Of a stretch of 64,000 nucleotides of DNA, positions 9,399 to 41,796 are shown one piece after another. Position 1 is the first letter of the stretch. The number at the start of each line of letters is the position of its first letter. The translations under genes and the position numbers were made by a program. Below the pieces are notes generated by a model. The model ran no database searches. It was not told where the DNA came from and saw only the letters and a list, made by a program, of their open reading frames with translations. Source of the DNA: Desulfomonile tiedjei (GTDB taxonomy: Bacteria > Desulfobacterota > Desulfomonilia > Desulfomonilales > Desulfomonilaceae). The DNA lies in NCBI GenBank assembly GCA_016218715.1, contig JACRDG010000040.1, positions 1-64,000 on the forward strand. Direction: 5' to 3'.

Positions 9399-11672
9399 CT
9401 ATGAGCCCTTCTTCAAGGCATTCAGAATCTTTTCCGGGGTTATCGGCAATTCCTTGCACCGGTAACCGATTGCGTGGTAGACCGCGTCGGAAATGGCGGG
9501 CGCAGTCGGGGATGCGAGGCCTTCGCCTGCCTCTTTGGCCCCCATGGGTCCCTCAGGTTCATACGTATCGACGTGGACCACATCACTCGGTGGCATGTCC
9601 AGAGCCATGGGCATCTTGTAGTCCGCAAAGTTGGTATTGAGCGTCTGCCCTCCGTCCATGACGAATTGTTCTGAAAGGGCATATCCGAGCCCCATCTGAA
9701 TGGAGCCGGCGAGCTGTCCCTCGACGCTCCGAGGATTGATCACCGTTCCGCAGTCATGGGCCGTCCACATGTGCTTGACTTCCACAAGGCCCGTTTCCGA
9801 GTCAACCTCGACTTCGGCTACTTGAGCGCCAAAACCGAACGCAGGGGTTACCAATCCTTTGCCCCTCGGCGTGTACGAGCCGCGGGCGACAAGCGGTTCC
9901 CCTCTGTTGGCCTTTTGCACCATGGCCACCGCCTCGCCGAAGCTCAAGCTGTACTCGCTTTTCGCTTTCGCTTGTACCCTGCCATCCTTGCATTCCAGCT
10001 CGTGAATGACATTCAGATTGAACCTGGCGGAAACTGCGCCGAAGAGCTGTTCTTTGATCTTCCTGGCCGCGTCGATGACCGCATTTCCCGCCATAAGGGT
10101 GATCCTGCTTCCCCACGCGCCCAAGTCGGCCTGGGGGGTCATGGAGGTGTCCGCGGAAGTCATCCGGATGTCCTCCATCCGTAACCCCAATTCTTCCGCC
10201 AGGATCTGCTTCAGGACCGTATCCGACCCTTGACCGATGTCGGCAGCCATGGTGAGCAGATGGACAGTACCGTCAGAGAATGCTCTGACCTCTGCCGCAG
10301 AGAACGGATACTGGGTATTGAACCAGTTGAACACGCCGCCGGAAATAAAACTGTAGCATCCGATACCAATGCCGTGCCCGGGTTTAAGGTTCTCGCGCTT
10401 TTCCTTCCATCCACTCATCTCGGCCACGGCCTTTATCGATTCAATGAAGCCGCAGCTTGAGATGGTTGCCACGTCGGGGATTTTATCGCCGCTCACTTGG
10501 GCGTTCTTGATCCTCAGATCGATCGGATCCATCCCCAGATCCTCCGCGGCCATATTCATCTGGATTTCCGTGGCGTAAAGCGATTGGGGCGCGCCGAAAC
10601 CGCGCATGGCGCTGGCCGGCGGCTTATTCGTATACACGTGCTGCCCGTGAAAGCGGTAGCTGGGGTAGCGGTAGAGCATGGCCCCGAAGTTTCCGCAGAG
10701 GAACGTGGCCGTAGGCCCCATGGCGTTGTACGCTCCGCCGTCCAGTTGAATCCTCAGGTCCTTGGCCACGAGCGTCCCGTCCTTTTTGAACCCCACCTTG
10801 GAGTGGATCTTCATGGGGTGTCTACGCCTGCCTGCAAGAAACTCCTCTTCCCTGCTCAAGGTGAACTTCACGGGGCGCCCCGTCATCTTTGCCATAAGCG
10901 CGGCGCAGAACTCCCAAGTGCGTAATTCCATCTTCCCGCCAAAGCCGCCGCCGATAAAAGGCTTGATGACCCGGACGTCGTTTTCGCGCATACCAAGCGT
11001 TGAAGCCAGGAGACACTGTATGATGTACGGGACCTGGGTGGAGGTCCAGAGGGTAATGCGGCCGTCCAGATCGACCTGCGCCAATGCCGAGCAAGGTTCG
11101 AGGTACGCATGGCTCACTGCATGCACCGTGAACGTGTCTTCCCGCACATAGTCGGATTCGGAAAACCCCTTTTCCACGTCCCCATATTTGATCTTTCGAT
11201 TGACGCTGATGTTGGTCGGGCAGTAGTCATGGAGGACCGGTGCGCCCAGCTGCATGGCCGCATCGATGTCGAATACGCTCGGCAGTTCTTCGTATTCCAC
11301 CTGGATAAGTTCAATGGCTTCTTCTGCCGTGTCTTTGTCTATGGCAGCCACAGCCGCTACTTCGTCCCCTATAAACCGCACCTTGTCAACCGCCAAGGGA
11401 TACTCGTCCTGAGTCTCGGGAAACAGCCGCCAGTTACCGTACTTGATCTTCGGGGTGTCTTCCGCGGTGACGATGCACTTCACGCCGGGCAGGGCCGCGG
11501 CCCGGCTCGTGTCGATATGCTTGATACGCGCGTGGGCCAGGGGACTTCTCACAATTCTTCCATAGAGCATTCCCGGCAGTTTCATATCGTCAGTATAGAG
11601 GGCAGAGCCCCTTGCTTTGGCTGGGCCGTCGGTCCTCGGTACGTCCGTCCCGACAACACTGAATTGCTTCAT
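9399..11672 (-). CDS. Molybdenum hydroxylase, large molybdopterin-binding subunit (4-hydroxybenzoyl-CoA reductase/xanthine dehydrogenase family)
   Basis: A 757-residue protein of the CoxL/XdhA/HcrA family, the catalytic subunit that binds the Mo-molybdopterin cytosine dinucleotide cofactor. Visible motifs are GGGFGGK (241-247), AMRGFGAPQ (355-363), GQGSDT (480-485) and GAKEAGE (711-717), whose last Glu corresponds to the catalytic glutamate. The GAKEAGEG form is more like 4-hydroxybenzoyl-CoA reductase and relatives than xanthine dehydrogenase. The full length fits the family. It is the third gene of a small-medium-large cluster, 21 bp after the FAD subunit. The substrate is not readable from sequence; an aromatic or heterocyclic acid or its CoA ester is a reasonable guess given the neighbouring acyl-CoA synthetases. 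Confidence 0.9.
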   Translation of the reverse strand: MKQFSVVGTDVPRTDGPAKARGSALYTDDMKLPGMLYGRIVRSPLAHARIKHIDTSRAAALPGVKCIVTAEDTPKIKYGNWRLFPETQDEYPLAVDKVRFIGDEVAAVAAIDKDTAEEAIELIQVEYEELPSVFDIDAAMQLGAPVLHDYCPTNISVNRKIKYGDVEKGFSESDYVREDTFTVHAVSHAYLEPCSALAQVDLDGRITLWTSTQVPYIIQCLLASTLGMRENDVRVIKPFIGGGFGGKMELRTWEFCAALMAKMTGRPVKFTLSREEEFLAGRRRHPMKIHSKVGFKKDGTLVAKDLRIQLDGGAYNAMGPTATFLCGNFGAMLYRYPSYRFHGQHVYTNKPPASAMRGFGAPQSLYATEIQMNMAAEDLGMDPIDLRIKNAQVSGDKIPDVATISSCGFIESIKAVAEMSGWKEKRENLKPGHGIGIGCYSFISGGVFNWFNTQYPFSAAEVRAFSDGTVHLLTMAADIGQGSDTVLKQILAEELGLRMEDIRMTSADTSMTPQADLGAWGSRITLMAGNAVIDAARKIKEQLFGAVSARFNLNVIHELECKDGRVQAKAKSEYSLSFGEAVAMVQKANRGEPLVARGSYTPRGKGLVTPAFGFGAQVAEVEVDSETGLVEVKHMWTAHDCGTVINPRSVEGQLAGSIQMGLGYALSEQFVMDGGQTLNTNFADYKMPMALDMPPSDVVHVDTYEPEGPMGAKEAGEGLASPTAPAISDAVYHAIGYRCKELPITPEKILNALKKGS

Positions 11673-11693
11673 GGTCCGTCCTTTCCGTGTGCG

Positions 11694-12569
11694 CTATGCG
11701 TTCTGTGCCCGCTCTTGGGCTTCTCGAAGTGCCCGCTGCGTCAGCACAGCCACCATATTTTTGCGCCATTGCGCGCTTGCTCTGATGTCGGAGATGGGCT
11801 TGGCTTCTTCGGCAGCTTCGTTCCCTGCCTTTTCAATGAGTTCCTGGGTCCATGCCTGCCCCAGCAGCAGACCCTCGGTTTTCATCGCACGCAAGGGAAT
11901 CGGGGCAACTGCGCCAAGGACCACGGCGGCCTTTTTGCAGACCTCCCCGTCAAAGGTTGCCGTGGCTCCCACGCCTACCGCTGCAATATCCACCCCGCAG
12001 CGGGCTGAAATGCGCTTGTACGATGCACCCGACCGCGGGGGCGGGACGGGAACGCGTATGGAAGTCATAATCTCCCCATGCTCCATGAGGGTGAATCCGG
12101 GGCCGGTAAAGAACTGGTCCAGAGAGAGCCGTCTTTCACCCTTCAGGCTGGCCAGCGTAACTTCCGCGCCCATGACGATGAGAGGCGGTGCGCTGTCCGC
12201 AGAAGGGGCCGCGTTACACAAATTCCCGGCGACCGTGCCCATATTGCGGACCTCCACGTTCGCCATTGACAGAATGGCCTGCGCGAGGGCGGGGTAGTAC
12301 TTCAATACGTCGGAATGGGAAGCGACAGCCGCCAATCGGGCGGTTGCGCCGATGGTCAGGCCTTCCGCGGCATCGAATCGGACCCCCTCCAGGCCTTCTA
12401 TCTCCTGGAGCGCGACGATCGCCCTGGGCTTCAAGCGGCCATGAGTCATCTTCACCATCACGTCCGTCCCGCCCGCCATCACGTGCGCGTCCTGTCCCTG
12501 TTCAATGAGTAGGTTCAGGGCAGCTTCCAGGGTCCTGGGCGCAAAATACTCGAATTTCGGCAATCTCAT
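11694..12569 (-). CDS. Molybdenum hydroxylase, FAD-binding medium subunit (CoxM-like)
   Basis: A 291-residue flavoprotein that passes electrons from the iron-sulfur subunit to the external acceptor. Both family FAD-binding signatures are present: AGGTD at 32-36 and TVAGNLCNA at 112-120, the latter followed by PSADSAPPL. The length fits CoxM-type subunits. There is no ~40-residue four-cysteine insertion of the kind that carries the extra [4Fe-4S] cluster in true 4-hydroxybenzoyl-CoA reductase beta subunits, which argues against the low-potential reductive reaction. The start is 4 bp after the stop of the 2Fe-2S subunit gene, so the two are translationally coupled. Confidence 0.9.
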   Translation of the reverse strand: MRLPKFEYFAPRTLEAALNLLIEQGQDAHVMAGGTDVMVKMTHGRLKPRAIVALQEIEGLEGVRFDAAEGLTIGATARLAAVASHSDVLKYYPALAQAILSMANVEVRNMGTVAGNLCNAAPSADSAPPLIVMGAEVTLASLKGERRLSLDQFFTGPGFTLMEHGEIMTSIRVPVPPPRSGASYKRISARCGVDIAAVGVGATATFDGEVCKKAAVVLGAVAPIPLRAMKTEGLLLGQAWTQELIEKAGNEAAEEAKPISDIRASAQWRKNMVAVLTQRALREAQERAQNA

Positions 12570-12573
12570 CGCT

Positions 12574-13062
12574 CTACCTCTTCCGGTTGGGGTCTCTCAT
12601 GGTTTCTGCAGCTGTCGAAACCGCTTCCACGATCTGATTGTATCCCGTGCACCTGCACAGATGGCCGGAAAGACCGGCCCGAATTTCTTTTTCTGTAGGC
12701 GATGGATTGTGCGCCAAGAGGTGCACGGCAGCCATCTCCATACCAGAGGTGCAGTAACCGCATTGAATGGCGCCAGTCTTGACGAAGGCGTCCTGCACGG
12801 GGTGAAGCTCTTCGCCCGAAGGGGCCAGGCCTTCCACCGTCTTCACGGACTTCCCGTTTACCGAGACCGCCAGCGTCAGGCATGAACTGACGATACGGTC
12901 GTCCACCATGACCGCGCAGGTCCCACAATCGCCGGTGCCGCAGCCGAGCTTGGTACCGGTCAGGTTCAGGTCGTCGCGAAGCACTTCATTTAACGTCCGC
13001 CAGGGGTGCACGGCCAGCGAGTACTCGTCCCCATTCACTTTGATTTTGATCTGGTGTTTCAT
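12574..13062 (-). CDS. Molybdenum hydroxylase, [2Fe-2S] small subunit (CoxS-like)
   Basis: 162 residues with an N-terminal plant-type ferredoxin domain (Cys41, 46, 49 and 61 in GCGTGDCGTC...C) and a C-terminal helical [2Fe-2S] domain (Cys101, 104, 136 and 138 in CGYC...CRC). These two clusters wire the Mo site to FAD. I chose the ATG at 13062 because AAGGAG lies 10 nt upstream; a longer open frame starts 13 codons earlier without a site. It is the first gene of the three-subunit operon and is preceded by ~425 bp of non-coding DNA with a dispersed repeat, so it may have its own promoter. Confidence 0.92.
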   Translation of the reverse strand: MKHQIKIKVNGDEYSLAVHPWRTLNEVLRDDLNLTGTKLGCGTGDCGTCAVMVDDRIVSSCLTLAVSVNGKSVKTVEGLAPSGEELHPVQDAFVKTGAIQCGYCTSGMEMAAVHLLAHNPSPTEKEIRAGLSGHLCRCTGYNQIVEAVSTAAETMRDPNRKR

Positions 13063-15183: not shown

Positions 15184-15669
15184 TCAATAGTAATACCGGG
15201 GAAACTTCGAGTTCGTATCGTCGTCTTCCCACAATACGCCAAGCCTCTCCTTGAAAAAGGAGCCAAGACGTTTGAATAGTCTGGCCCAGTGCGTTTGTCC
15301 GCGCTCCAAATCTTCAAGTATTTCGGCCACGAGTTCAGGCAGTCGCCCAAGTTCTTCTTTAGGGAGGAATGACACTGCCCCCAGCTTGACCGCCAGGTTG
15401 AGGCTTTCGATGTTGATGGCGTGGGCCGTCAACATGGCTGCAGGAAGTCTCTTGGCCCGACAGGCATCGAGAAGCGCGAACCCATTTACGCCCATAATGT
15501 CCAGAATGACGAGATCGAAGGATTCTGCAGCAATAAGCTCGCGAGCCTCGCTAAAACTGGATGCAGCGACGACGTGCGAGGTGGCAAGGGCCTCCGCCAC
15601 GATGTCGAGAACATCCGGCTCGTCGTCTACGACCAGAATCCTCTTTCCGACCAGTATTTGGCCGCCCAT
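15184..15669 (-). CDS. Receiver-domain-only response regulator
   Basis: A 161-residue protein with a CheY-like receiver domain: acidic pair D15-D16, phosphoacceptor D57 (LVILDIMG), T81 and K104 (FLPKE). It is followed by a ~45-residue basic helical tail (LFKRLGSFFKERLG) and an aromatic-rich end. No DNA-binding output domain is visible. The start at 15669 is preceded by GGGAGG, 5 nt away. It sits 29 bp after the acyl-CoA dehydrogenase gene and is probably co-transcribed. Its kinase is not adjacent. It may act by protein contact or within a phosphorelay; the role is unknown. Confidence 0.82.
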   Translation of the reverse strand: MGGQILVGKRILVVDDEPDVLDIVAEALATSHVVAASSFSEARELIAAESFDLVILDIMGVNGFALLDACRAKRLPAAMLTAHAINIESLNLAVKLGAVSFLPKEELGRLPELVAEILEDLERGQTHWARLFKRLGSFFKERLGVLWEDDDTNSKFPRYYY

Positions 15670-15698
15670 TTCGTCCTCCCGCTCGTGTTCCGGCAAGC

Positions 15699-16847
15699 TT
15701 ATGGATTGAGCCCGAGCCGGCGGCTGATGATCAACTTCATGATCTCGCTCGTGCCTGCGAAGATGGACAGGCAACGCACGTCTCGATAGAGCTTGCAGAC
15801 TCGGTATTCTTCCATGTACCCGTACCCTCCGTGCATCTGGACCGCTTGATAGGCGATGCGATTCACCATTTCGCCGAGCCAGTATTTTGCCATGGAGACT
15901 CTCTGCACGATGTTCTTGCCTGCAATGTGGTCCCTGATGAGGCTATCCAAGAACGTGCGGCCCAGCTCGACTTCTGTGGCCATATCAGCCAGCCGGAAGG
16001 CGGTGTATTGAAAGTTTCCGATCGGTTTGCCGAACGCCTCGCGCACCTTCACATAGTTGAGTGCCTCTTTGAGGGCTTCCTCGGCCAGTACCTGGCACTT
16101 GATGGAGACTTCCAGACGCTCCTGCTGGAGCTTTTCCATCATGTATGTGAAACCCTGTCCTTCCTCTCCGAGCAGGTTGCCTGCAGGGACCCGGCAGTCT
16201 TCGAAGAAAAGCTCGGCCGTGTCCTGCATGTGATACCCCATCTTGTCCAACTTGCGGCCACGGTGAAACCCAGGAGCGTCCTTATCCACCAGGATGAGGC
16301 TGATGCCTCGATGACCGGCATCAGGATCGGTCTTCACCGCGAGAACAATCACATCCGCGAAATAACCGTTGGTGATGAAGGTCTTCTGCCCGTTGATAAC
16401 GTAGGAATCGCCGTCCTTCACCGCTCTCGTTCGAATGGCTGCGAGATCTGACCCGGTATTGGGCTCGGTCAGTCCGATGGACGTAATCACTTCTCCGGTC
16501 GTGCATCCGGGAAGCCATCGCTTCTTCATTTCCGTAGAGGCAAACGAATAGATATAGGGGGTAGCGACGTCACTGTGCAAGGGGACTTCCACGCCGAATG
16601 CGTTCCCTCGCAGCAGTTCCTCATTGATGATGACCGAGTATTCGAATCCTAATCCAAGGCCTCCGTATTCCTCGGGAAGCCAGGGGCACAAATAGCCCTC
16701 CTCACCCATCTTGAGCCATATGCTCCGCGGCACGGCACGGTTTGCCTCCCATTCCGGGACGTGGGGCGTGATCTCGCGGGCCACGAATTTCCTGAAAGAT
16801 TCACGGAAGATCCTGTGTTCCTCAGTATTGAAAAGCATATCGTCCAT
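15699..16847 (-). CDS. Acyl-CoA dehydrogenase (long-chain/isovaleryl type)
   Basis: 382 residues, full length for the FAD-dependent acyl-CoA dehydrogenase family, which introduces an alpha,beta double bond and passes electrons to ETF. Signatures are LTEPNTGSD (126-134) and MHGGYGYMEEY near the C-terminus. The usual catalytic Glu position of short/medium-chain enzymes is Ala here (IFAGTSE). Instead, LQQERLEV carries Glu243, matching the alternative catalytic base of long-chain and isovaleryl-CoA dehydrogenases. It is therefore probably active with a different base position. It lies 42 bp after the TRAP large-subunit gene. No ETF genes are in the window. Confidence 0.92.
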   Translation of the reverse strand: MDDMLFNTEEHRIFRESFRKFVAREITPHVPEWEANRAVPRSIWLKMGEEGYLCPWLPEEYGGLGLGFEYSVIINEELLRGNAFGVEVPLHSDVATPYIYSFASTEMKKRWLPGCTTGEVITSIGLTEPNTGSDLAAIRTRAVKDGDSYVINGQKTFITNGYFADVIVLAVKTDPDAGHRGISLILVDKDAPGFHRGRKLDKMGYHMQDTAELFFEDCRVPAGNLLGEEGQGFTYMMEKLQQERLEVSIKCQVLAEEALKEALNYVKVREAFGKPIGNFQYTAFRLADMATEVELGRTFLDSLIRDHIAGKNIVQRVSMAKYWLGEMVNRIAYQAVQMHGGYGYMEEYRVCKLYRDVRCLSIFAGTSEIMKLIISRRLGLNP

Positions 16848-16889: not shown

Positions 16890-18191
16890 CTATTTCATCA
16901 TCACGCCGGGCAGATAGGTGGCGAGTTGCGGGAATATGAACAACAGCATCATGCATACGATCATGGATATCAGGAACGGGTAGACGCCGCTGTATATGAG
17001 CCCGTACGATTCCTTGGTGATGTTCCTCACCACAAATACGCAGATGGCCACCGGAGGTATTACCGATCCGATACATACGGTGCAAGCTACCATAATGCCC
17101 GCCCACAAGGGATCGTATCCCAATTTCATGATCACGGGAAAGAAGATCGGGGTTGCCAGGATCATGAAGGCAAGATCGTCGATAAAGGAGCCGCCCAGAA
17201 GATAGACCAGGAGAATAATAATCATGATCGCAGCGCGGTGGAATGGCAGAGCCATAATCCAATCGGCAGAGACCTGAGGAATATTCGTCACGGCAATGAA
17301 ATGTCCCAGAACCGCGGAGAATGCAATGAGCAGGAGCACCATACAGGCCGTACGCAACGCCTCGCGGAGGGATCGTACGTACCCCTTCAGCCCCAGATCT
17401 TTCTTGATGATGCACAGAACCAGGACAGCGAAGGCTCCGATGCTTCCCGCTTCGGTCGGCGTAAAGAAGCCGTTGGTAAGCCCGCCTATCAGAATAAGAA
17501 ATATGACGATGGGCCATATCACATCGGGAAGGGACTTCCACCTTTCCGGCCAGGTAAACCTCGTGCTTTCCGGTCCCAGACGTGGGTTGATTCTACACCA
17601 CCCGAAGATGATGACGATAAAGAAGGAGGACATGATAAGGCCTGGGAAAACTCCGGCCATGAACAGCTTACCGATAGACTGTTGGGTGATGATGCCAAAA
17701 ACGATGAGGGTGATACTCGGCGGGAGGAGGACCCCTAATGTTCCCACCGTGGCTACTATCCCCGTGGAGAGCTTCTTGCTGTACCCGTAGCGATCCATCT
17801 CGGGAATGGCAACGCTGGCGAAGGTAGCCGACGTGGCCACCACCGACCCACAAATCGCTTTGAAAACTGTGGCGCCGACCACCGTTGCCATGGCAAGTCC
17901 GCCCGGAATGTGCCCGAGGAATTTGTGCGTCGTGTCGTACAGCCGCCTTGCAAACCCTGCATTGAATGCGATCTGCCCCATGAGCACAAAGAGGGGTATG
18001 GCTGTCAGGCCGTAGGATGCCAAGGAATCGAGGAAATCATTGGCAAAGAGGCAGAGGGCCGTGTCAAACCCATTAAGTGCGGCAAATCCGACAAAACCAA
18101 CGGCGGCCATAGCGAAGGCGAGTTCGATCCCCGTCAGGAAGAGGGCGAGGAGTACAAGAAGGGCCAGACCCCCAAAAGCTACCTCAGTCAT
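16890..18191 (-). CDS. dctM: TRAP transporter large permease (DctM)
   Basis: A 433-residue, very hydrophobic DctM-family protein with about 12 membrane segments, forming the Na+-driven translocation channel of a TRAP importer for organic acids. Recognisable family stretches include LPPSITLIVFG and PTEAGSIGAFA. Its start overlaps the end of the small-subunit gene by 8 bp, indicating translational coupling. It works with the binding protein and small subunit immediately upstream. Substrate specificity lies in the binding protein. Confidence 0.93.
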   Translation of the reverse strand: MTEVAFGGLALLVLLALFLTGIELAFAMAAVGFVGFAALNGFDTALCLFANDFLDSLASYGLTAIPLFVLMGQIAFNAGFARRLYDTTHKFLGHIPGGLAMATVVGATVFKAICGSVVATSATFASVAIPEMDRYGYSKKLSTGIVATVGTLGVLLPPSITLIVFGIITQQSIGKLFMAGVFPGLIMSSFFIVIIFGWCRINPRLGPESTRFTWPERWKSLPDVIWPIVIFLILIGGLTNGFFTPTEAGSIGAFAVLVLCIIKKDLGLKGYVRSLREALRTACMVLLLIAFSAVLGHFIAVTNIPQVSADWIMALPFHRAAIMIIILLVYLLGGSFIDDLAFMILATPIFFPVIMKLGYDPLWAGIMVACTVCIGSVIPPVAICVFVVRNITKESYGLIYSGVYPFLISMIVCMMLLFIFPQLATYLPGVMMK

Positions 18192-18731: not shown

Positions 18732-19763
18732 CTATTTCTTGTACTCCTTGAAGGACTCTGTGAGGAATGCCACCGCTTCCTCACCCGGAAGGCCCTTTGC
18801 CTTGGTGTCTTTGATGTATGCCTCGACCAGCGGTTTTGACCCTTTCTCATACCAGCGAGACTCTTCCTGAGCACTGAGGGGGATGATCTCGACGCCTCTG
18901 CTGATGAGCCATTCCTTGCCTTTGGCATCTATCTCGGTCCACATCTTGGCATACTTCTCGATGTATTCGGGGCTCATCTCATCGATGAGCTTCTGGACTT
19001 CCGGAGAGAGCGAAGCCCAGGTCTTCTTGTTCATTGCAACGACAAACGCGGCGGAATATGCGGTGTCCAAGTTCTCGGTGCAGTATTTTATGTGCTCGCC
19101 GGTGCGGAAACCGTGAAGTGCCTCATAGCTGGACAGGCAACCGTCCACCACTCCTTTTGCCAGGGCGTCGTACACATCGGGCATGGGCATGGCCACGGGC
19201 GCTGCGCCCACCAAGCCGACAAATTTGGCATTCGATCCATAGCAGCGCAGCTTCAGGCCTGCAATGTCTTCGACCTTTCTCACAGGCTTGGTTTTCGTGT
19301 GAACGAGGCCGTACGGCATTGCGTGGAACCACAATATCTTTACATCGTCAAATTCTTTCGGCTTGAATTTCTTATAGACCTCGTTGGCGATTTTCGTCGG
19401 GCCAGGGCCTGCCGGGAAACCTATCGGCAGGTCCAAGACTTGAGAGAAGGGGAATCTTCCCATCGTGTAACCCATGACATGGTTACTCACATCCGCAATC
19501 CCCTTCACTACCGCGTCGTATGACTGCGCCGCGGGAACAAGGGTGCCGCCGGCGTAGTAATTGACCTTCACTTTGCCGTTGGACCGCTTTTCCAGTTCCT
19601 TACCCCACTCCTGCAAGAGCACATCCTGCTTGTGGCCCACAGGAAACCAGTTGCTGACTTTCAAGGTTACGACCTTTTCTTCAGCGAAGCCAACCGTGGC
19701 CACCGTGCAGGTGGCTGCCAACACCAACAGCACGAAAAGATGGATACCGACCATGCGTTTCAT
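18732..19763 (-). CDS. dctP: TRAP transporter periplasmic solute-binding protein (DctP)
   Basis: 343 residues with a cleavable signal peptide (basic start, hydrophobic core, cleavage probably after VGFA). A DctP fold follows, with motifs PIGFPAGPGPTK and a conserved Arg in LKLRCYG that normally clamps the ligand carboxylate. The start at 19763 is chosen for the GAAGGAAG 4 nt upstream; a longer frame has no site. The 98-bp gap upstream contains a -24/-12 promoter-like sequence, so the TRAP genes may be separately induced. Presumably it imports the acid metabolised by the flanking enzymes. Confidence 0.92.
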   Translation of the reverse strand: MKRMVGIHLFVLLVLAATCTVATVGFAEEKVVTLKVSNWFPVGHKQDVLLQEWGKELEKRSNGKVKVNYYAGGTLVPAAQSYDAVVKGIADVSNHVMGYTMGRFPFSQVLDLPIGFPAGPGPTKIANEVYKKFKPKEFDDVKILWFHAMPYGLVHTKTKPVRKVEDIAGLKLRCYGSNAKFVGLVGAAPVAMPMPDVYDALAKGVVDGCLSSYEALHGFRTGEHIKYCTENLDTAYSAAFVVAMNKKTWASLSPEVQKLIDEMSPEYIEKYAKMWTEIDAKGKEWLISRGVEIIPLSAQEESRWYEKGSKPLVEAYIKDTKAKGLPGEEAVAFLTESFKEYKK

Positions 19764-19797
19764 AGATCTTCCTTCCTTCGTTGTTCGTTCATGGCAA

Positions 19798-19813
19798 GGC
19801 AATCGAGTTGCCA
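19798..19813 (-). promoter_or_regulatory. Sigma-54 (-24/-12) promoter candidate before the TRAP genes
   Basis: The minus strand reads TGGCAACTCGATTGCC: GG and GC are 10 bp apart and it is close to the consensus TGGCACG-N4-TTGCW. The predicted start is ~24 nt before the dctP start codon. Sigma-54 control is known for some dicarboxylate transport genes. Confidence 0.55.
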
Positions 19814-19861
19814 TACTGGGGCAATGTTTTTCTCCCCACCGTTAGCACCCGAAAAGCATCA

Positions 19862-21511: not shown

Positions 21512-22456
21512 CTACTGTTGCTTGGGCAAATAAGCGTCCTCCATTGCCTTCACCAGATTCGTCATGGCTATGTAAAAGGGGGTCGGGATGCCCAGTTCCC
21601 GACCGTATTGGACGACTTTCCCTCCCAGGAAATCGATTTCCGTGGGCGTTTTGTGCGCGATGTCGTAGCACATGGAATCTTTGTGCAGGCCTACCTTTTC
21701 CAGATAGCCGAAGGCCGTGCGGAGATAATCGTCCCCAAGGTCATAGCCCTTGGCCTTGGCCACCGCGAGGACTTCCTTGAAGGAGTTCTCCGCTATTTCC
21801 CTCGTAGGCGGAAAATCGATAAGCTCCTTCAGCGTCCGATCGGTGACCGCACAGATGGAGGCCATGGTGCATTTCATGACCATCTTCTTCCAGACGTAGA
21901 GCTTGATGTCATCGACGCATTCGGTATCCAGGCCACCGTCGGTAAGCATTTTCGCGACTTCGGACCCCAGTTTCTTATTCGACTCAGTCAGGCCTCCCAG
22001 GTGATTGGGTCGATTGAAAAAGGCCATTGCAACCTCGGTTGGGCCTTTCAGGGAGACACCATAATTCAATGACATGCGGAACGCCGCGTCCGCTCCGAAG
22101 GTTTCAGCAATGAGATCCTCCGTGCCTAGGCCGTTGTGGGTACTGACGATCTTTGTTCCTTCCTTGAACACGGCCTTCAGCTCCTCCAGAACCATCGGGA
22201 GATGAAACGTCTTCGTGGAGAGGAATATGAGATTCGGCCTGAAATCTTTCATCATTTCAATCCGCTCGAAGAAATGACGAACGGGGACATGCCAGGAGAC
22301 CTCTCCTGAAATCGCTAGGCCGCTTTCCTTGATGCTTTCTCCTAAACCGGGTCTGGGATCTACGAGTATTGTGTCAGGATCCTGGTTGATCAGGGCTGCG
22401 GCCAAAACAGCGCCTGTCGCCCCAACCCCCACCACGGCAGTTCTCAGGTCATCCAT
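21512..22456 (-). CDS. Ketopantoate reductase-like (ApbA/PanE family) oxidoreductase
   Basis: 314 residues with an N-terminal Rossmann motif GVGATG (10-15) and the PanE C-terminal helical domain; a lysine in the VWKKMVMKC region is the likely general acid. The family reduces 2-oxo acids such as ketopantoate with NADPH. Because it sits between FAD oxidases and an acyl-CoA synthetase, 18 bp from the former, I infer a catabolic 2-oxo/2-hydroxy-acid step rather than coenzyme A biosynthesis. The true substrate is unknown. Confidence 0.82.
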   Translation of the reverse strand: MDDLRTAVVGVGATGAVLAAALINQDPDTILVDPRPGLGESIKESGLAISGEVSWHVPVRHFFERIEMMKDFRPNLIFLSTKTFHLPMVLEELKAVFKEGTKIVSTHNGLGTEDLIAETFGADAAFRMSLNYGVSLKGPTEVAMAFFNRPNHLGGLTESNKKLGSEVAKMLTDGGLDTECVDDIKLYVWKKMVMKCTMASICAVTDRTLKELIDFPPTREIAENSFKEVLAVAKAKGYDLGDDYLRTAFGYLEKVGLHKDSMCYDIAHKTPTEIDFLGGKVVQYGRELGIPTPFYIAMTNLVKAMEDAYLPKQQ

Positions 22457-22473
22457 GATTCACCTCACCTCTG

Positions 22474-24075
22474 CTACTTCGGCAAATCGTCCGGGGATTC
22501 CCAATCCTTCATGTGGTGCATCCACGGCGCGCGTTCGACAAAGACATCGTGAGCAAGCGGCACCGGCGGATGGGATTTCCATTTGGGGTCGAACTCGTTT
22601 TTCACCTTGAGGAGAAATTCGTGGTAGTTGGGTCCGTATTGTGGTCCGGTGAGATAGAGCGGTTGATGCGGGCCCAGGAGAGAGGTGTAGAACCGGTTCT
22701 TAATGTTCATCTTGGACGTGTCGACGTAGAACTGGTCGACCGGGTTGGTGTCGTCGTCCTGATCCCAGTACACCAGGAACTCCGAGTACCCCTGGTGTCC
22801 CAGCTCGAAGCTCTGGAACCAGCCGGGATCGCCATAATCAGGCATGAGCGGCGGTGTGTATTTTCTCTTGAGATCAGCATAGGAGGGGCCGTGGTCCGGT
22901 GACTGGGAGAGCGTTTCAATAACATAGTCCACGGAGACATATCCACCGCACATCAGCCACATACCGGCCGAGTCCGCGTTCTTGATCCAGGACTCGTCGC
23001 TCGGCTTGGTCCGACGTGCAATCCCTCCGACCTCGCTCATGATGTCCATCAGGACGCGTTCGTCGTATTCCATCTGCTCTTCCGATGTGTACCCGATGAG
23101 GAGGACGCGGACGATGAAGAAATTCGCGACGGTCTCCTCGTTCTCCTTGCTCCAGAGGTCCCAGAACTCCTCTTTGCACTCCGCCTTGGCAATGGCGCGC
23201 CAGAAGAGGGGAACCTTGGTGACCGCTCCGGCAATCTCGGCATGGCCGATCTCCCGCATGGCCTGCACCTGGGCATCCTTCGAGGGGACGACGAAGTTGA
23301 TCCACTTGACCCGTTTTTCCGGGAGAGCCAATGCGGTATTGGGGGAGATACCCGTGGGTTCGAGACGTTCGGGTTGAAACGGAAGGGTCTTGATCGCCAT
23401 TCTCGTGACGATCCCGAGGCAGCCGCGCAGCCCGGTGTAACCTCGCAAGAGCCCTCGGAGGTCCGGTCCGGGGCCTTCACCCCAGAAGGGATCATCCCCT
23501 TCAGCCAGAGAGCCGAGCTTGAGCAGCTCGCCATCGGGCATGACCACCTCGGTTCCAAGGATGCGGCGATGAGGGAGCCCGATCCGGTGGCTCAAGGGAG
23601 ACCAGCCGTCGCCGATCAGATTGGCGATAGCTGAAGCCTGGGCCCCTCCTCCCCCGATCACCACGTACGCTCCGTGTTTCATGCACTCTTCTTGGATGGG
23701 CGAGTAAATCATGCCGGGGCCTACTTCCACGTAGAAGTGCTTCTCGTCGAGCTTGAAATCGTTCATGCGCTTAAGATCGATGAGGAGAGCATCCTCGACG
23801 TGAGGATGGGAGCGCGAACCGTAGAACCCCGTGCTGTAAGGAACATAGGGAACATCGTTCCGGTAACAAACCTTGACGATCCGCTGGACCTCTTCAGTCG
23901 TCCTGGGCATGATCACGCAGCCTGGGACCTTGGTCATGACCCGTTCGTATCCCAGGCCGCTTTCGTATCCTCCGGGACCGCTCCGATATCCCTCGCAGAT
24001 CACCGGGTCATCGGAGATATACTGGGAACCGACGACTGCCTCTAATGCCTTATAGATTTCTTTGGATATCGCCAT
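22474..24075 (-). CDS. FAD-linked oxidase, p-cresol methylhydroxylase/vanillyl-alcohol oxidase-like
   Basis: 533 residues. The N-terminal half is an FAD_binding_4 (PCMH-type) domain with VVIGGGGAQASAIANLIGDG and RGCLGIVTRMAIKT; the C-terminal half resembles the VAO/PCMH substrate domain in length and ending. The PP-loop that normally reads with several Gly (RGGGT) is VPYSTGFYGS here. Family members oxidise 4-alkylphenols, aromatic alcohols or 2-hydroxy acids. It is 14 bp after the Fe-S protein gene, with a paralogous flavoprotein on the other side, so it probably donates electrons to that Fe-S protein. There is no signal peptide, so it is cytoplasmic. Confidence 0.82.
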   Translation of the reverse strand: MAISKEIYKALEAVVGSQYISDDPVICEGYRSGPGGYESGLGYERVMTKVPGCVIMPRTTEEVQRIVKVCYRNDVPYVPYSTGFYGSRSHPHVEDALLIDLKRMNDFKLDEKHFYVEVGPGMIYSPIQEECMKHGAYVVIGGGGAQASAIANLIGDGWSPLSHRIGLPHRRILGTEVVMPDGELLKLGSLAEGDDPFWGEGPGPDLRGLLRGYTGLRGCLGIVTRMAIKTLPFQPERLEPTGISPNTALALPEKRVKWINFVVPSKDAQVQAMREIGHAEIAGAVTKVPLFWRAIAKAECKEEFWDLWSKENEETVANFFIVRVLLIGYTSEEQMEYDERVLMDIMSEVGGIARRTKPSDESWIKNADSAGMWLMCGGYVSVDYVIETLSQSPDHGPSYADLKRKYTPPLMPDYGDPGWFQSFELGHQGYSEFLVYWDQDDDTNPVDQFYVDTSKMNIKNRFYTSLLGPHQPLYLTGPQYGPNYHEFLLKVKNEFDPKWKSHPPVPLAHDVFVERAPWMHHMKDWESPDDLPK

Positions 24076-24089
24076 GATCCACCTTCCTC

Positions 24090-25415
24090 CTAGCCTTCAA
24101 TGGATGCGCAGATGACTTCCGAGATATCCAGCACCTGCACATCAGCCGCGCCGGCTTTGGCGGCCTGGGCGAAATTGTTCTTGCACCACGGGCAGGAGGA
24201 GACGAGCGTTTCCGCGCCGATCTCCTTCACCTCATCAAGCCGATGCGATGCGGCCCACTCTGCAAAATCGGGAAACGCTTCCCGGACTCCTCGACCCGCG
24301 CCGCAGCAGAAGGCGTTTTCCCTGGTCCTCGGCATTTCTACGAGGTTGACGCCGGGGATCGCCTTGAGGATGTCTCTCGGCTTGGCATAGATCTCTTGAT
24401 TGCCCCGCCTTCGCGTGAGTCTCGGTTCCACACACCCCATCCAGCCCCGTTTTCCTTCATAAGGGGTCCAGGGGTCACTCAACCGCGCGAGACCGCAGGA
24501 ATCGTGATAGGTCAGCCGCGTTTCCAGGGGCTTCTTCATCTTCAGGACGCCGCTTTTCATCTTCTCGTCCACATACTCGACGAGGTGGATGACCTGGAAA
24601 CCCAGATCCGCAGTGGAGATGTTCAGCACCTTGGGATAGTCGACCTTCCACATCCGATAGCACTCCGCACAACTCGTGAGCAGCGTCTTCACTCCCGTCT
24701 GCCGAACTTGGTCGATGTTCCGCTGAGCCAAGGCTTTGGCCTCATCAAACAGCCCCACGGAAAACACGGTGTTCCCGCAGCACCATTCGTCCGGCATGAG
24801 CATGAACGCGGTTCCGGCAGCCTGGAGAATCTTTGCCGTGGACTGGGCGATTTCCCGGTTCACATAGGAAGCGGTGCACCCCGCGAAGTACAGCACCTCG
24901 GCCTTTTGTGCGGGCGTGATCCCTTGAGGGAGCCACTCGGTCCGTTTTTCGGACGGAGCGCCGTACAGGTTGTGCTTCTGCGCGATGCTCTCGGCGATCC
25001 GCTTGTGCGCGGGGAGCGGGCCGACGCCGTCTTGCACCGCCTTTACGCGGAGCGCCTCCAGGGAAAGCCCGACCTCCAGGTCCAGGTTCCGCTTGCACCC
25101 AACGTCGCAAGCTCCGCACAACGTGCAGGCATACAGTACCTCCAGGGCTGTCTCGTTCCAGCCGAGTCGCCCTTCGGCCATGGCGTGCCCGATGCGCATC
25201 TTGCCGTATGCTCCGTACGCGTCAAATTCGTACTTCGCCGCGCTGGGACATCGCGTCATGAACTTCGGACCCGGCATATACGTATGGTCCACCCACGTGC
25301 AGCCCTTGCATTTGATGCAGCGGCTCATGTCGTAGACGAAATTCTTCACGTCCGTAATATCGAGTTTGAACTCCGCGGCTGGCTTGTAATATCTGACAGG
25401 CGATGGATCGGCCAT
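24090..25415 (-). CDS. CCG-domain (HdrD/GlpC/GlcF-like) iron-sulfur oxidoreductase
   Basis: 441 residues, soluble. An atypical first 4Fe-4S motif (CIKCKGC, then CP after a long loop, residues ~33-57) is followed by a canonical one (CTLCGACDVGC). Two CCG domains come next: C...CCGN...CAEC and HDSC...CCGAG...CPWC, the kind that bind non-cubane clusters in heterodisulfide reductase. Proteins like this collect electrons from a flavoprotein dehydrogenase (GlcF, LldE, GlpC). It lies between the two FAD oxidase genes with 13- and 14-bp gaps, so a three-part complex is likely. The final acceptor is unknown because no membrane subunit is adjacent. Confidence 0.88.
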   Translation of the reverse strand: MADPSPVRYYKPAAEFKLDITDVKNFVYDMSRCIKCKGCTWVDHTYMPGPKFMTRCPSAAKYEFDAYGAYGKMRIGHAMAEGRLGWNETALEVLYACTLCGACDVGCKRNLDLEVGLSLEALRVKAVQDGVGPLPAHKRIAESIAQKHNLYGAPSEKRTEWLPQGITPAQKAEVLYFAGCTASYVNREIAQSTAKILQAAGTAFMLMPDEWCCGNTVFSVGLFDEAKALAQRNIDQVRQTGVKTLLTSCAECYRMWKVDYPKVLNISTADLGFQVIHLVEYVDEKMKSGVLKMKKPLETRLTYHDSCGLARLSDPWTPYEGKRGWMGCVEPRLTRRRGNQEIYAKPRDILKAIPGVNLVEMPRTRENAFCCGAGRGVREAFPDFAEWAASHRLDEVKEIGAETLVSSCPWCKNNFAQAAKAGAADVQVLDISEVICASIEG

Positions 25416-25428
25416 GATCTCTCCCTCC

Positions 25429-26886
25429 CTAGAAGCACAGGTTTGAAGGATTCATGATGTTGTTGGGATCAAATACCTTCTTGATCCGCTTGAGCGCGGC
25501 GGCGTAGGAAGCGGCTCGCTCGTACACGATGGGGGCCAGGTCTCCGTACGGCCTGGTAAACACCGCTCCTTCTTTAAGGAGCGCCGCGGCGGCCTCACGG
25601 TACAGTGCGCGAATCGTCGCCGTCTCATCTTCATCCGCGGGATTGTAGAAGAACGTGAATTCAGGCCTGCACGCTCGGTTGTGTTCGATCGGCTGGATGT
25701 ATATGCCGATATCTTGGCCGGGGTACCCGTACCGGGCCGCGATCTCGTTCACCTTGGTCACAAATTGCTGTGCCTTGCCCGGGCGTGTGTGGAAGAAGAG
25801 ACTCTGGCACGCGCCCTTGACGCGGTTCTTCCAGTGCGGCACGTCTGCGGGCCAGGGATTGCGCAGTATGGGCAGGAGCCTGTTTCGCAGGCCCGGGAAG
25901 CCGGGAAGATTCTCTCCCAGCCTGAGATCGGAGAACTCGTTTCTCGTTACCTGATCCAGAAAGCTCTCTTCGTAGGCGAGCTTTTCTTCGGGTCGCCTCA
26001 GGAGCCCGCTGATTACCAGGATCAGAGTCCACGGCGGCAGCGCGTCCTTCAGGCGGGTAAAGTCGCCCGGCCATTCCTCGGCCAGAATCGCTGCCAGGTC
26101 CACCTGGTTCAAGAGCAGAACCTCCTGGCCGATCCTACGCGGCAGGATGCGATGCAGGAAATCCATGACGTGATCGAGGTCATCGATCGGTGCAAAGAGG
26201 ATCTTATCCCTCTTCGGGATGGATTCGATCTTCAGGTTCGTCCAGGTAACCACGCCCATGGTCCCCTGAGCACACTGAAAGAACCGGTAGAAATCGAGTC
26301 CGGGCCCTGACGGGTTCCCTCCCTTCGAGGGGGAGTCCGGATAACCGTTGACGCTTGCCGAACCCATTCTGAAGATCTCACCGGTGGGCCATACGACCTC
26401 CATGGCCTGGAGAGGCTCTCCATAATCGTAGACCTGGTTCGTGGGCTCTTCCCGCTCCAGGAAATCGGTGAGAACGGAACGTTGGGCAGGCGGGGTCAGG
26501 GGCATGATCACGCGAAAGCCCTTTTCCTTCAATTCCCGGGTAAGCTGCCCCCAGGTCACCCCGGCCTCAAACCTCACCCGGCGGTTGTCCGGATCGATCT
26601 CCAGGACTTTGGCCATTCTTGACAGGTCAAGGACCAGACCACCTTCCTTCGGAATGGTCGCTCCGTAGAAGTGGACCTGGGAACTGCAGGGCACGACGGG
26701 GATGCGGTTTTCGTTGCAGAGCTTAACGATCCCTGCAACCTCCTCCGCGCTTGCGGGTTTGGCGACATAATTTGCAGCCCCTGCGGGGGTGTAGCTGAAA
26801 TCGCTCTCATAGATCCGCAGTTGAACAGGGTCGTCGGAGCAGTTGTCAGCTCCGACGATTTCACAGAGTCTCGATCTGACGTCCAC
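25429..26886 (-). CDS. FAD-linked oxidase, glycolate oxidase-like, first gene of the catabolic block
   Basis: 485 residues with an FAD_binding_4 domain and a GlcD-type C-terminus ending KKVFDPNNIMNPSNLCF. Its PP-loop is VVPCSSQVHFYGAT, unusual in the same way as the other flavoprotein here, which suggests that the two are diverged paralogs. The start is a GTG with GGAGG 6 nt upstream. It is the first gene after a clear promoter/palindrome at 26944-26997 and precedes the Fe-S gene by 13 bp. It may oxidise a hydroxy acid or act as the second flavin module of the complex. Confidence 0.85.
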   Translation of the reverse strand: MDVRSRLCEIVGADNCSDDPVQLRIYESDFSYTPAGAANYVAKPASAEEVAGIVKLCNENRIPVVPCSSQVHFYGATIPKEGGLVLDLSRMAKVLEIDPDNRRVRFEAGVTWGQLTRELKEKGFRVIMPLTPPAQRSVLTDFLEREEPTNQVYDYGEPLQAMEVVWPTGEIFRMGSASVNGYPDSPSKGGNPSGPGLDFYRFFQCAQGTMGVVTWTNLKIESIPKRDKILFAPIDDLDHVMDFLHRILPRRIGQEVLLLNQVDLAAILAEEWPGDFTRLKDALPPWTLILVISGLLRRPEEKLAYEESFLDQVTRNEFSDLRLGENLPGFPGLRNRLLPILRNPWPADVPHWKNRVKGACQSLFFHTRPGKAQQFVTKVNEIAARYGYPGQDIGIYIQPIEHNRACRPEFTFFYNPADEDETATIRALYREAAAALLKEGAVFTRPYGDLAPIVYERAASYAAALKRIKKVFDPNNIMNPSNLCF

Positions 26887-40173: not shown

Positions 40174-41796
40174 CTAGCGAGCGTTGAGGAGACCCACGAT
40201 CTTTCTGTGCCCGCACACCTGTGCGATCTTCAGGGCTGTCTCGCCACGCCTGTTCTTAGCATCAACATCAGCGCCCTCGTCCAGAATTATTCGCACCGCT
40301 TCCGGGTTCCCTCCCCACGCGGCATCCATGAGCGCGGTGAAGCCGTCTTCATCCTGTGCGTTGACCGCGGCGCCCTTGTCGAGAAGCAGCCTCACGATTT
40401 CCGCATGCTTTCGAATCGCGGCCAACATGAGAGCGGTCCTGCCATGCTCGTCCTTCGCGTTCACATCCGCGGCCTTTTCCAGGAGCAATTTCACCATGTC
40501 CACGCGGCCTTCCCCGGCAGCATACATGAGGGCTGTCGGTCCCTTCTCCGGATTTATCGGTACGCCCCTGTCCAGAAGCGATGTGACAAGCTCCTGGTGA
40601 CCATCCTCGGCTGCCTTCATCAGGGCTAACCAGCCGAACTCGGCGTCCATCTCAGCGCCTCTTTCCAGGAGCAGTTTCACCACATCCCAGTTACGTCGGC
40701 TGGCTGCCCAGGTGAGGGCCGGCCAGTAACTCGTGTCTTCTGCATTGACCTTAGCGCCCCTGTCGAGAAGCACTTTCACCACGTCCAGGTGCCCTGCCTC
40801 AGCAGCCTGCTCCAGTGCCGTCCCCTGATACTCGATCAGCTCGTTTACATCAGCGCCACCGTCGAGGAGAGCATCTATCGTTCCCGCGTCACCGGCCGCG
40901 GCAGCTTCCATCAAAGGGGTGCGATACGGGCCCGATAGTTTGCTATCCGCACCGCCTTCTGAAGAAGGTGCTGATGCTCCCTTCTGACAGACTTCGGAGG
41001 ATCCTCCGCACGTCCAGCCTGAACCGTCGTGCTTGATGCGCGCGACGATGTCCCCCTGAGCCAACACTTCGACAGTTGAGGAGTCCGACCATTGATAAGA
41101 ATTGAAACAATAACCTTCCAAACGCCATTCTCTGGCAATGCCCTTGCTTGACAATGTCCAGATCTCGGTGTCACAAGGGCTTTCACCGGGATAGCCGATA
41201 GACAGAAAGCGCGTTTTGTCGGGAGAAAAGGGACCGGCCCCTCGTACTCCCGCTACTGCCCCAGTGTCTCGATTGAAGAACTTGAATCCGTCGCCCTCAA
41301 AGTACTGTTCGTGAATTACGTACCAGGGGTCGATGAAATCAGTAAATGCATGACCGACACGCACTTCGCCAGTGGAATCTGTGTACCCATCTTGCTGGGC
41401 AGGCGGAGTGCTCCTCCTGGATACTATTGTCCCGTCCATCATTCGGAAGAAAACCTCCGCACCTCGACGTGCGACCCTATCGCCGTACCTGGCCATCCGA
41501 AGGCCCTCCGCGGTGTCAACTCCAAGGTCTCGGAGGAAATGCTCGATCTCCTTGTGGCCCTTGTGCTGGGCAATTTCCAAAGGCGTGAAGCCGTCCTTGT
41601 CCATTGCATTGACATCAGCACCGCTCTTCAAGAGGGTCTTGACCTGACCCAAGTCGCCTGTCACGACCGCCTGGAACAACTGCTGATTCCTGTCGTCGGC
41701 ACCGGCAATTCCGTGAGAAGCAGCGAGCATGAGGGACAGGCCAAGAGCCAGGATTGCTCCACCCAACCGGAGAACACGACCCCTTTGCAGCGACAT
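40174..41796 (-). CDS. Secreted ankyrin-repeat protein with an inserted beta-rich domain
   Basis: 540 residues. A signal peptide (GGAILALGLSLMLAASHGIAGA) is followed by about two ankyrin repeats (~35-97), a ~170-residue non-ankyrin segment (~98-270) with paired cysteines (CDTEIW, WRLEGYC, WTCGGSSEVC), and about seven or eight more ankyrin repeats to the end (TPLMEAAAAGD, TALMYAAGEGR and so on). The middle segment looks like a small beta-domain; I do not recognise it. Periplasmic ankyrin proteins often bind partner proteins, for example in oxidative stress protection. It lies 29 bp after the 41826 gene, so the two are probably co-transcribed. Confidence 0.88.
   Translation of the reverse strand: MSLQRGRVLRLGGAILALGLSLMLAASHGIAGADDRNQQLFQAVVTGDLGQVKTLLKSGADVNAMDKDGFTPLEIAQHKGHKEIEHFLRDLGVDTAEGLRMARYGDRVARRGAEVFFRMMDGTIVSRRSTPPAQQDGYTDSTGEVRVGHAFTDFIDPWYVIHEQYFEGDGFKFFNRDTGAVAGVRGAGPFSPDKTRFLSIGYPGESPCDTEIWTLSSKGIAREWRLEGYCFNSYQWSDSSTVEVLAQGDIVARIKHDGSGWTCGGSSEVCQKGASAPSSEGGADSKLSGPYRTPLMEAAAAGDAGTIDALLDGGADVNELIEYQGTALEQAAEAGHLDVVKVLLDRGAKVNAEDTSYWPALTWAASRRNWDVVKLLLERGAEMDAEFGWLALMKAAEDGHQELVTSLLDRGVPINPEKGPTALMYAAGEGRVDMVKLLLEKAADVNAKDEHGRTALMLAAIRKHAEIVRLLLDKGAAVNAQDEDGFTALMDAAWGGNPEAVRIILDEGADVDAKNRRGETALKIAQVCGHRKIVGLLNAR

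Follow-up and report, generated by a model that had tools for sequence, protein, structure and literature searches.

In a 64,000-nucleotide stretch of Desulfomonile tiedjei DNA (called here the window, meaning the whole of the stretch analysed), three adjacent genes, which we call flavA, CCG and flavB, probably encode a single heterotrimeric oxidoreductase of the flavin adenine dinucleotide (FAD)/iron-sulfur/FAD type, which here most likely oxidizes an aromatic compound. It is not an ordinary glycolate oxidase but a branch of a recently proposed family of two-flavin iron-sulfur oxidoreductases. What the data themselves show is the order and conservation of the genes, their co-variation, the predicted fold, the ligands of the clusters, the genomic context and the co-occurrence with BamA; complex formation, the aromatic substrate and the direction of electron flow are what we infer. 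The genes run in the order flavA-CCG-flavB, with gaps of 13 nt (flavA/CCG) and 14 nt (CCG/flavB):

25429-26886, minus strand: flavA, 485 aa, GTG start; Pfam FAD_binding_4 and FAD-oxidase_C; loop CSSQVHFYGA
24090-25415, minus strand: CCG iron-sulfur protein, 441 aa; Pfam Fer4_8 and two CCG domains; TfrB/HdrB-like
22474-24075, minus strand: flavB, 533 aa; Pfam FAD_binding_4 only; loop YSTGFYGSRSHPH

Both flavoproteins score above the FAD_binding_4 cut-off (84.0 and 77.4 bits) and so belong to the superfamily of vanillyl-alcohol oxidase (VAO) and p-cresol methylhydroxylase (PCMH), defined by the PF01565 fold.

The three genes travel together widely. A search of genome contigs with flavA gave 388 relatives, of which the best 80 were kept; 20 regions were added from the 33 genomes of the phylum that bear a close flavB, neighbourhoods thus being covered for 20 of those 33 genomes, and four near-duplicate loci (L036, L123, L134, and L136) were removed before the final counts. 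The triad is complete at 43 of the 47 loci of the close group, 27 of the 34 of the distant group, and 1 of 15 outgroup loci, the last including GlcD-like loci of Bacillus relatives that were also among the flavA matches; the four incomplete close loci all stop at a contig edge. The bacterial relatives of flavA come from Desulfobacterota, Dehalococcoidia and other Chloroflexi, Desulfosporosinus, Pelotomaculum and other Firmicutes, Acidobacteria, and Spirochaetes, and the archaeal ones from Freyarchaeota, Jordarchaeia, Lokiarchaeota, and Nezhaarchaeota. The flavA-CCG-flavB set is therefore an old unit across several bacterial phyla and archaea, and the concern that the three proteins might not co-occur elsewhere is answered. 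Within the phylum, close flavB has a patchy distribution, being present in 33 of 395 genomes at E 1e-80 and, within the class, in 3 of 42 at E 1e-60. Several flavB-like genes occur per genome in G042, G116, G074, G243, G343 and related genomes, which suggests that some lineages hold families of paralogous triads. Tandem flavoprotein sets were also seen at four loci (L249, L250, L251, and L253), one set with a CCG gene and the other a flavA-flavB pair (second protein ∼564 aa) for which we detected no CCG gene.

Over 63 complete triads, the pairwise distances of flavA, CCG and flavB correlate with one another at 0.949–0.969, as compared to 0.333 for the best of 999 permutations. In one genome (G048), CCG and flavB are joined in a single 992-aa frame adjoining flavA (L219:4793-7771, G048:C21), with CCG as residues 2-430 (55% identity to that of the window) and flavB as residues 444-959 (62%); this fusion is the most direct hint that the triad proteins are physically associated. 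In the tree, the flavB proteins of triads form a single clade (support 99) and the flavA proteins a separate one, with E. coli GlcD and GlcE and the outgroup sequences beside flavA on long branches. Of the three subunits, flavB varies least in the close branch, with a mean identity of 75.7% vs 64.2% for flavA and the higher value in 834 of 861 pairs, whereas in the distant branch it varies most (36.7% vs 41.2% for flavA); we take this shift to mean that the function of flavB may have become fixed in the close branch. The first-pass annotation had proposed a two-flavin complex rather than a plain glycolate oxidase, and this proposal is well supported by the wide co-occurrence, the co-variation, the partial fusion, and the absence from flavA of the GlcD motifs described below.

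The same annotation had described an atypically long-spaced first cluster motif in the iron-sulfur protein, and the family alignment bears this out. The motif reads C33-x2-C36-x2-C39-x16-C56-P, its cysteines are present in 28 or 29 of 29 aligned CCG sequences, and the x16 spacing holds in all those displayed except two outgroup sequences, where it is short. The second motif is CxxCxxCxxxC. Two cysteines vary in the family, and the protein in the window retains both: 10 of 29 sequences have Gly in place of Cys252 of the first CCG domain, and 6 of 29 (L018, L024, L026, L027, L030, and L031) have Asp in place of the first Cys of the second motif (YADPLCGACD). The Asp variants possibly hold an Asp-ligated cluster of altered potential.

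Each flavoprotein was found to carry the FAD loop reported for it, PCSSQVHFYGA in flavA and PYSTGFYGS in flavB, but the claim that both share the same atypical loop was not borne out. Both loops are Gly-poor: in the ten aligned columns flavA has one Gly and flavB two, as compared to five in E. coli GlcD and two in E. coli GlcE, and of 40 further FAD_binding_4 domains from the phylum (picked by hand to span the matches, with few of the weakest) 33 have at least three, six have two, and one has one. However, they are two different variants, that of flavB being shorter, and FYG is not conserved. In flavA the conserved core is S68-S69 ... H72-F73-x-G75, and the FYG Tyr (Tyr74) is found in only 18 of 49 sequences, the others having His, Asn, Arg, Gln, Phe, or further residues there; in the close family of flavB the loop is STGFYGPRSH, and Tyr85 is Tyr in 28 of 46 sequences and Trp in 14. 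Because the Tyr varies and the two loops are conserved differently, FYG is no shared signature, and that candidate was rejected. The variants are also not wholly foreign to ordinary GlcD/VAO enzymes, since Gly-poor loops are present in E. coli GlcE and in other flavB relatives and the YG of the loop aligns with the GYG of PCMH. Loops of the berberine-bridge type carry a His, and FAD might conceivably be bound covalently to His72 of flavA; however, His72 is kept in only 38 of 49 sequences, and in the alignment the His in the GGGH loop of L198 is offset from it by one position.

The AlphaFold2 model of flavA (mean predicted local distance difference test score 91.1) adopts the VAO/PCMH/D-lactate dehydrogenase fold, with Z 31.6–37.5 among the 50 matches listed, and that of flavB (mean 79.9, dropping below 50 at places within 191-215 and over 358-370) the same fold class, with Z 26.3–30.1 among the 50 listed. 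Because the best Z scores of flavA among these matches are alike (VAO 37.5, PCMH 36.0, and D-lactate dehydrogenase 36.7), the predicted fold cannot decide its chemistry; for flavB the corresponding values are 29.5 (VAO/PCMH) and 30.1 (D-lactate dehydrogenase), and a choice between PCMH-like and D-lactate-like chemistry by fold rank was dropped. The family alignment shows as conserved in flavA Q398-P, C406, E409, R445-P-Y-G, and a C-terminal LCF.

The residues bear on a narrower form of the aromatic reading, doubtful but possible, in which the complex is a phenol side-chain dehydrogenase of the PCMH/VAO kind that oxidizes a p-hydroxybenzylic carbon via a quinone methide, with the iron-sulfur protein replacing cytochrome c or oxygen. 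The best PDB match of the close-family flavA profile is indeed PCMH, over its full length (E 2.5e-37), and the alignment places the FYG Tyr at PCMH Tyr95 and Arg445, which is kept in 41 of 49 sequences, at Arg474, which we take to be the counterparts of two of the three residues that bind the phenol in VAO. The likeness to PCMH, VAO and eugenol oxidase thus extends over the fold, the profile match, the YG of the loop and this Arg, but the operon in the window has no cytochrome partner, the position of PCMH Tyr473 is Thr (27 of 49) or Ser (12 of 49), and that of the covalent Tyr384 is Asn in the flavA of the window (in an alignment at ∼20% identity). In VAO the phenol-binding triad is Tyr108, Tyr503, and Arg504 (PMC10404669). 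At this same ∼20% identity, the Tyr-Tyr-Arg of the group is not reproduced in flavA, where the Arg is kept, the first Tyr is variable, and the second is Thr/Ser. With the phenol-site residues incomplete and the metal motifs of D-2-hydroxyacid dehydrogenases (below) absent, flavA has the full set of expected residues for neither known chemistry.

The operon continues on the minus strand with the following genes:

21512-22456, minus strand: apbA, ketopantoate-reductase family, above the TIGR00745 cut-off; also near the triad at L117, L118, and L135
19862-21484, minus strand: lig1, AMP-forming acyl-coenzyme A (CoA) ligase, by family match
18732-19814, minus strand: dctP-like solute receptor of a tripartite ATP-independent periplasmic (TRAP) transporter; homologues near the triad at L117, L118, L120, and L135
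18184-18669, minus strand: dctQ-like TRAP small membrane subunit
16890-18191, minus strand: dctM-like TRAP large membrane subunit; homologues found
15699-16847, minus strand: acyl-CoA dehydrogenase, by family match
15184-15774, minus strand: response-regulator receiver protein; homologues near the triad at L117, L120, and L121
13488-15065, minus strand: lig2, AMP-forming acyl-CoA ligase, by family match
12574-13062, minus strand: [2Fe-2S] subunit of a xanthine-oxidase-family molybdenum enzyme, by family match
11694-12569, minus strand: FAD subunit of the same molybdenum enzyme, with three scattered Cys only
9399-11672, minus strand: molybdopterin subunit, nearest NCBIfam model 4-hydroxybenzoyl-CoA reductase alpha

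The three TRAP genes are presumably dctP-, dctQ- and dctM-like, the names being assigned from their sequences. The listed TTG start of the response-regulator gene overlaps the preceding gene, and its true start is probably further in. The xanthine-oxidase-family trio is complete in the window (9399-13062) and resembles 4-hydroxybenzoyl-CoA reductase overall, although it falls below the cut-offs for that enzyme (alpha 767 vs 994.55 bits, beta 125.6 vs 404.55). The beta subunit of 4-hydroxybenzoyl-CoA reductase has an extra [4Fe-4S] insertion; because the FAD subunit in the window has only its scattered cysteines, the trio differs in lacking this cluster. Within the stretch covered around each locus, genes for molybdenum hydroxylases were found at 25 of 47 close loci, as compared to 1 of 34 among the distant loci and 0 of 15 in the outgroup. 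Other neighbours were corrinoid/URO-D/RACo genes (2 of 47 close and 5 of 34 distant loci) and UbiD/UbiX (2 of 34 distant loci), and aldehyde-ferredoxin oxidoreductase genes also adjoin some distant relatives.

Genomes that carry close flavB are enriched in BamA, a marker of the benzoyl-CoA pathway: 21 of 33 have it, vs 82 of 362 among those lacking close flavB (Fisher p 2e-6), and by genus the counts are 18 of 26 vs 51 of 220 (p 4e-6); the genome of the window itself carries BamA. In the mechanism we propose, the substrate, probably an aromatic carboxylate imported by the TRAP system or else a phenol, would give up a hydride to the flavin of flavA or flavB, and the electrons would exit via the clusters of the CCG protein, the second flavin acting as a relay or a second site. 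The CoA ligases, the acyl-CoA dehydrogenase and the molybdenum hydroxylase would then move the product towards the benzoyl-CoA pathway.

Several observations weigh against an aromatic-oxidizing heterotrimer. No molybdenum-hydroxylase gene lies nearby at 22 of 47 close loci (some of which end at a contig edge), BamA was not seen in 12 of the 33 flavB genomes, and the association of BamA with flavB is a raw Fisher count that ignores kinship and has no control family. flavA-CCG occurs with no flavB nearby at Dehalococcoidales loci (L045, L047, and L067, as well as L044, a short contig). A diverged triad resides on plasmid pAvCG78a of Agrobacterium vitis (L138, 8974-13468), and because this plant-associated organism is an aerobe, membership of the family does not imply an anaerobic aromatic pathway. 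Both the distance correlation and the gene order could also arise if the genes were inherited jointly as an operon but their products formed no physical complex, and the fusion is a single case that could be a sequencing artefact or an assembly error. Finally, the reading is built from gene sequences and predicted models. Upstream of the A. vitis triad lie genes for an AMP ligase and an aldehyde dehydrogenase.

The idea of a two-flavin complex is no longer new, as two 2026 papers describe such heterotrimers and propose them as candidate benzene-activating enzymes (PMC13101534, PMC13416013). In a methanogenic culture that degrades benzene, ORM2a proteins #24-26 were the top three proteins by detection, and Toth et al. 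modelled them as a GlcDEF-like heterotrimer; in the work of Musat et al., BzS1_12970/80/90 made up about one-fifth of the proteome detected in a sulphate reducer that degrades benzene (PMC13101534, PMC13416013). As in the window, the ORM2a "Magic" set has the order FAD oxidase, HdrC-like iron-sulfur protein, FAD oxidase, with an FAD-linked oxidase C-terminal domain in the first flavoprotein and none in the third, and the Cys motifs of its iron-sulfur protein are irregular, conserved cysteines being missing from two motifs of #25 (Toth et al.; PMC13101534, PMC13416013). The BzS1 proteins (54.5, 46.5, and 65.8 kDa) are similar in size to ours, the third being larger than the 533 aa of flavB. The neighbours differ: those described for the ORM2a and BzS1 sets are an AMP ligase, MaoC, and type III CoA transferases or beta-oxidation genes, whereas in the window they are the molybdenum hydroxylase, ApbA, ligases, acyl-CoA dehydrogenase and TRAP genes. 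Musat et al. report syntenic homologues of 23-42% identity in NaphS2 and Desulfosarcina variabilis, organisms unable to use benzene, and presume that these homologues serve other functions, and the matches of the ORM2a triad outside its own clade are at 22-29% (Table 3; PMC13101534, PMC13416013). The triad in the window is of the same general kind as these sets but apparently from another branch. Because its Desulfonema magnum counterparts are 73-88% identical in the three proteins, its neighbours differ, and the ORM2a outside-clade matches are so low, it most likely belongs among the homologues with other functions, and is probably an aromatic-compound dehydrogenase of this family that does not act on benzene. 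Beyond the two benzene papers we recognized no further description of the flavA-CCG-flavB set among the papers listed in literature searches, and a term search of a single-cell paper on Desulfatiglans (PMC6129605) gave no occurrence.

A second alternative, which we consider unlikely, is flavin-based electron bifurcation or confurcation, with one flavin at the substrate and the other splitting or joining electrons between acceptors of unlike potential. Two flavoproteins and an iron-sulfur wire would suit this, the analogy is discussed by the BzS1 authors, and EtfAB genes lie close to 4 of the 34 distant loci and were also found in 6 of 20 additional distant regions; GlcDEF, however, the nearest architecture, is described by Toth et al. 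as non-bifurcating (PMC13101534, PMC13416013). EtfAB adjoins the triad only in these distant relatives, being near 0 of 47 close loci, and the Pfam matches of flavA, CCG and flavB include no Etf or NAD-binding domain. The Ldh-EtfAB complex of Acetobacterium woodii (LctD, 7qh2), which combines a GlcD-like flavoprotein with EtfAB, resembles the neighbourhoods of some distant relatives but differs in this respect from the close-family loci; to our knowledge, a second FAD paralogue and a CCG protein like those of the triad are not part of it.

Quite improbable is a drifted but ordinary GlcDEF-type 2-hydroxyacid dehydrogenase acting on glycolate, lactate, aryl-lactate, or mandelate, and a plain glycolate or D-lactate dehydrogenase was rejected as the leading reading on motifs and model scores. 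The three-part make-up equals that of E. coli glcDEF, where two FAD paralogues and one CCG protein likewise share an operon; D-lactate dehydrogenase structures tie with or top the fold lists; and the GlcD equivalog TIGR00387 does match. However, its scores (93.1 bits for flavA and 64.7 for flavB) are far under the cut-off of 567.9 bits, the E. coli gene order is another, GlcE is only 350 aa, and GlcD and GlcE group with the outgroup in the tree, on long branches, leaving flavA outside. HxGDGNxH and EHGxG are the metal-site motifs of D-2-hydroxyacid dehydrogenases of the GlcD and LDHD type. Both are absent from flavA, where the aligned letters are PIEHNRAC and FTRPYG, whereas HAGDGN is carried by the Bacillus and E. 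coli GlcD-type sequences and EHGVG by those of Bacillus.

That the complex in the window itself activates benzene or another unsubstituted arene is extremely improbable in spite of the gene order and domain make-up it shares with the described ORM2a and BzS1 sets, given the low identities cited above, the absence of the type III CoA-transferase and MaoC that flank the ORM2a set from the annotated operon genes of the window, and the occurrence of triads in Agrobacterium and archaea, which makes a benzene-only role unlikely. In 20 chosen distant triad regions of the phylum, no CaiB or MaoC match indicative of such a set was found with three CaiB and two MaoC seeds from the genome of the window, a check that weak relatives could escape.

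Anaerobic benzene activation is a long-standing question, and neither of the candidate complexes proposed in 2026 has a characterized relative. It is a long shot that the whole family performs flavin-based, oxygen-free functionalization of an unactivated aromatic C-H bond at two unlike flavin sites joined by an iron-sulfur protein. If it did, the operon in the window would encode a version acting on an aromatic acid, and this type of reaction would extend across several phyla of bacteria, into the archaea, and even to aerobic rhizobia. The family is far wider than benzene degraders, occurring in dozens of genomes that include cultured Desulfonema magnum (L013) and A. vitis, and tractable relatives such as these could settle its function. 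Elsewhere in the window, positions 40174-41796 encode a 540-aa protein consisting mainly of ankyrin repeats.

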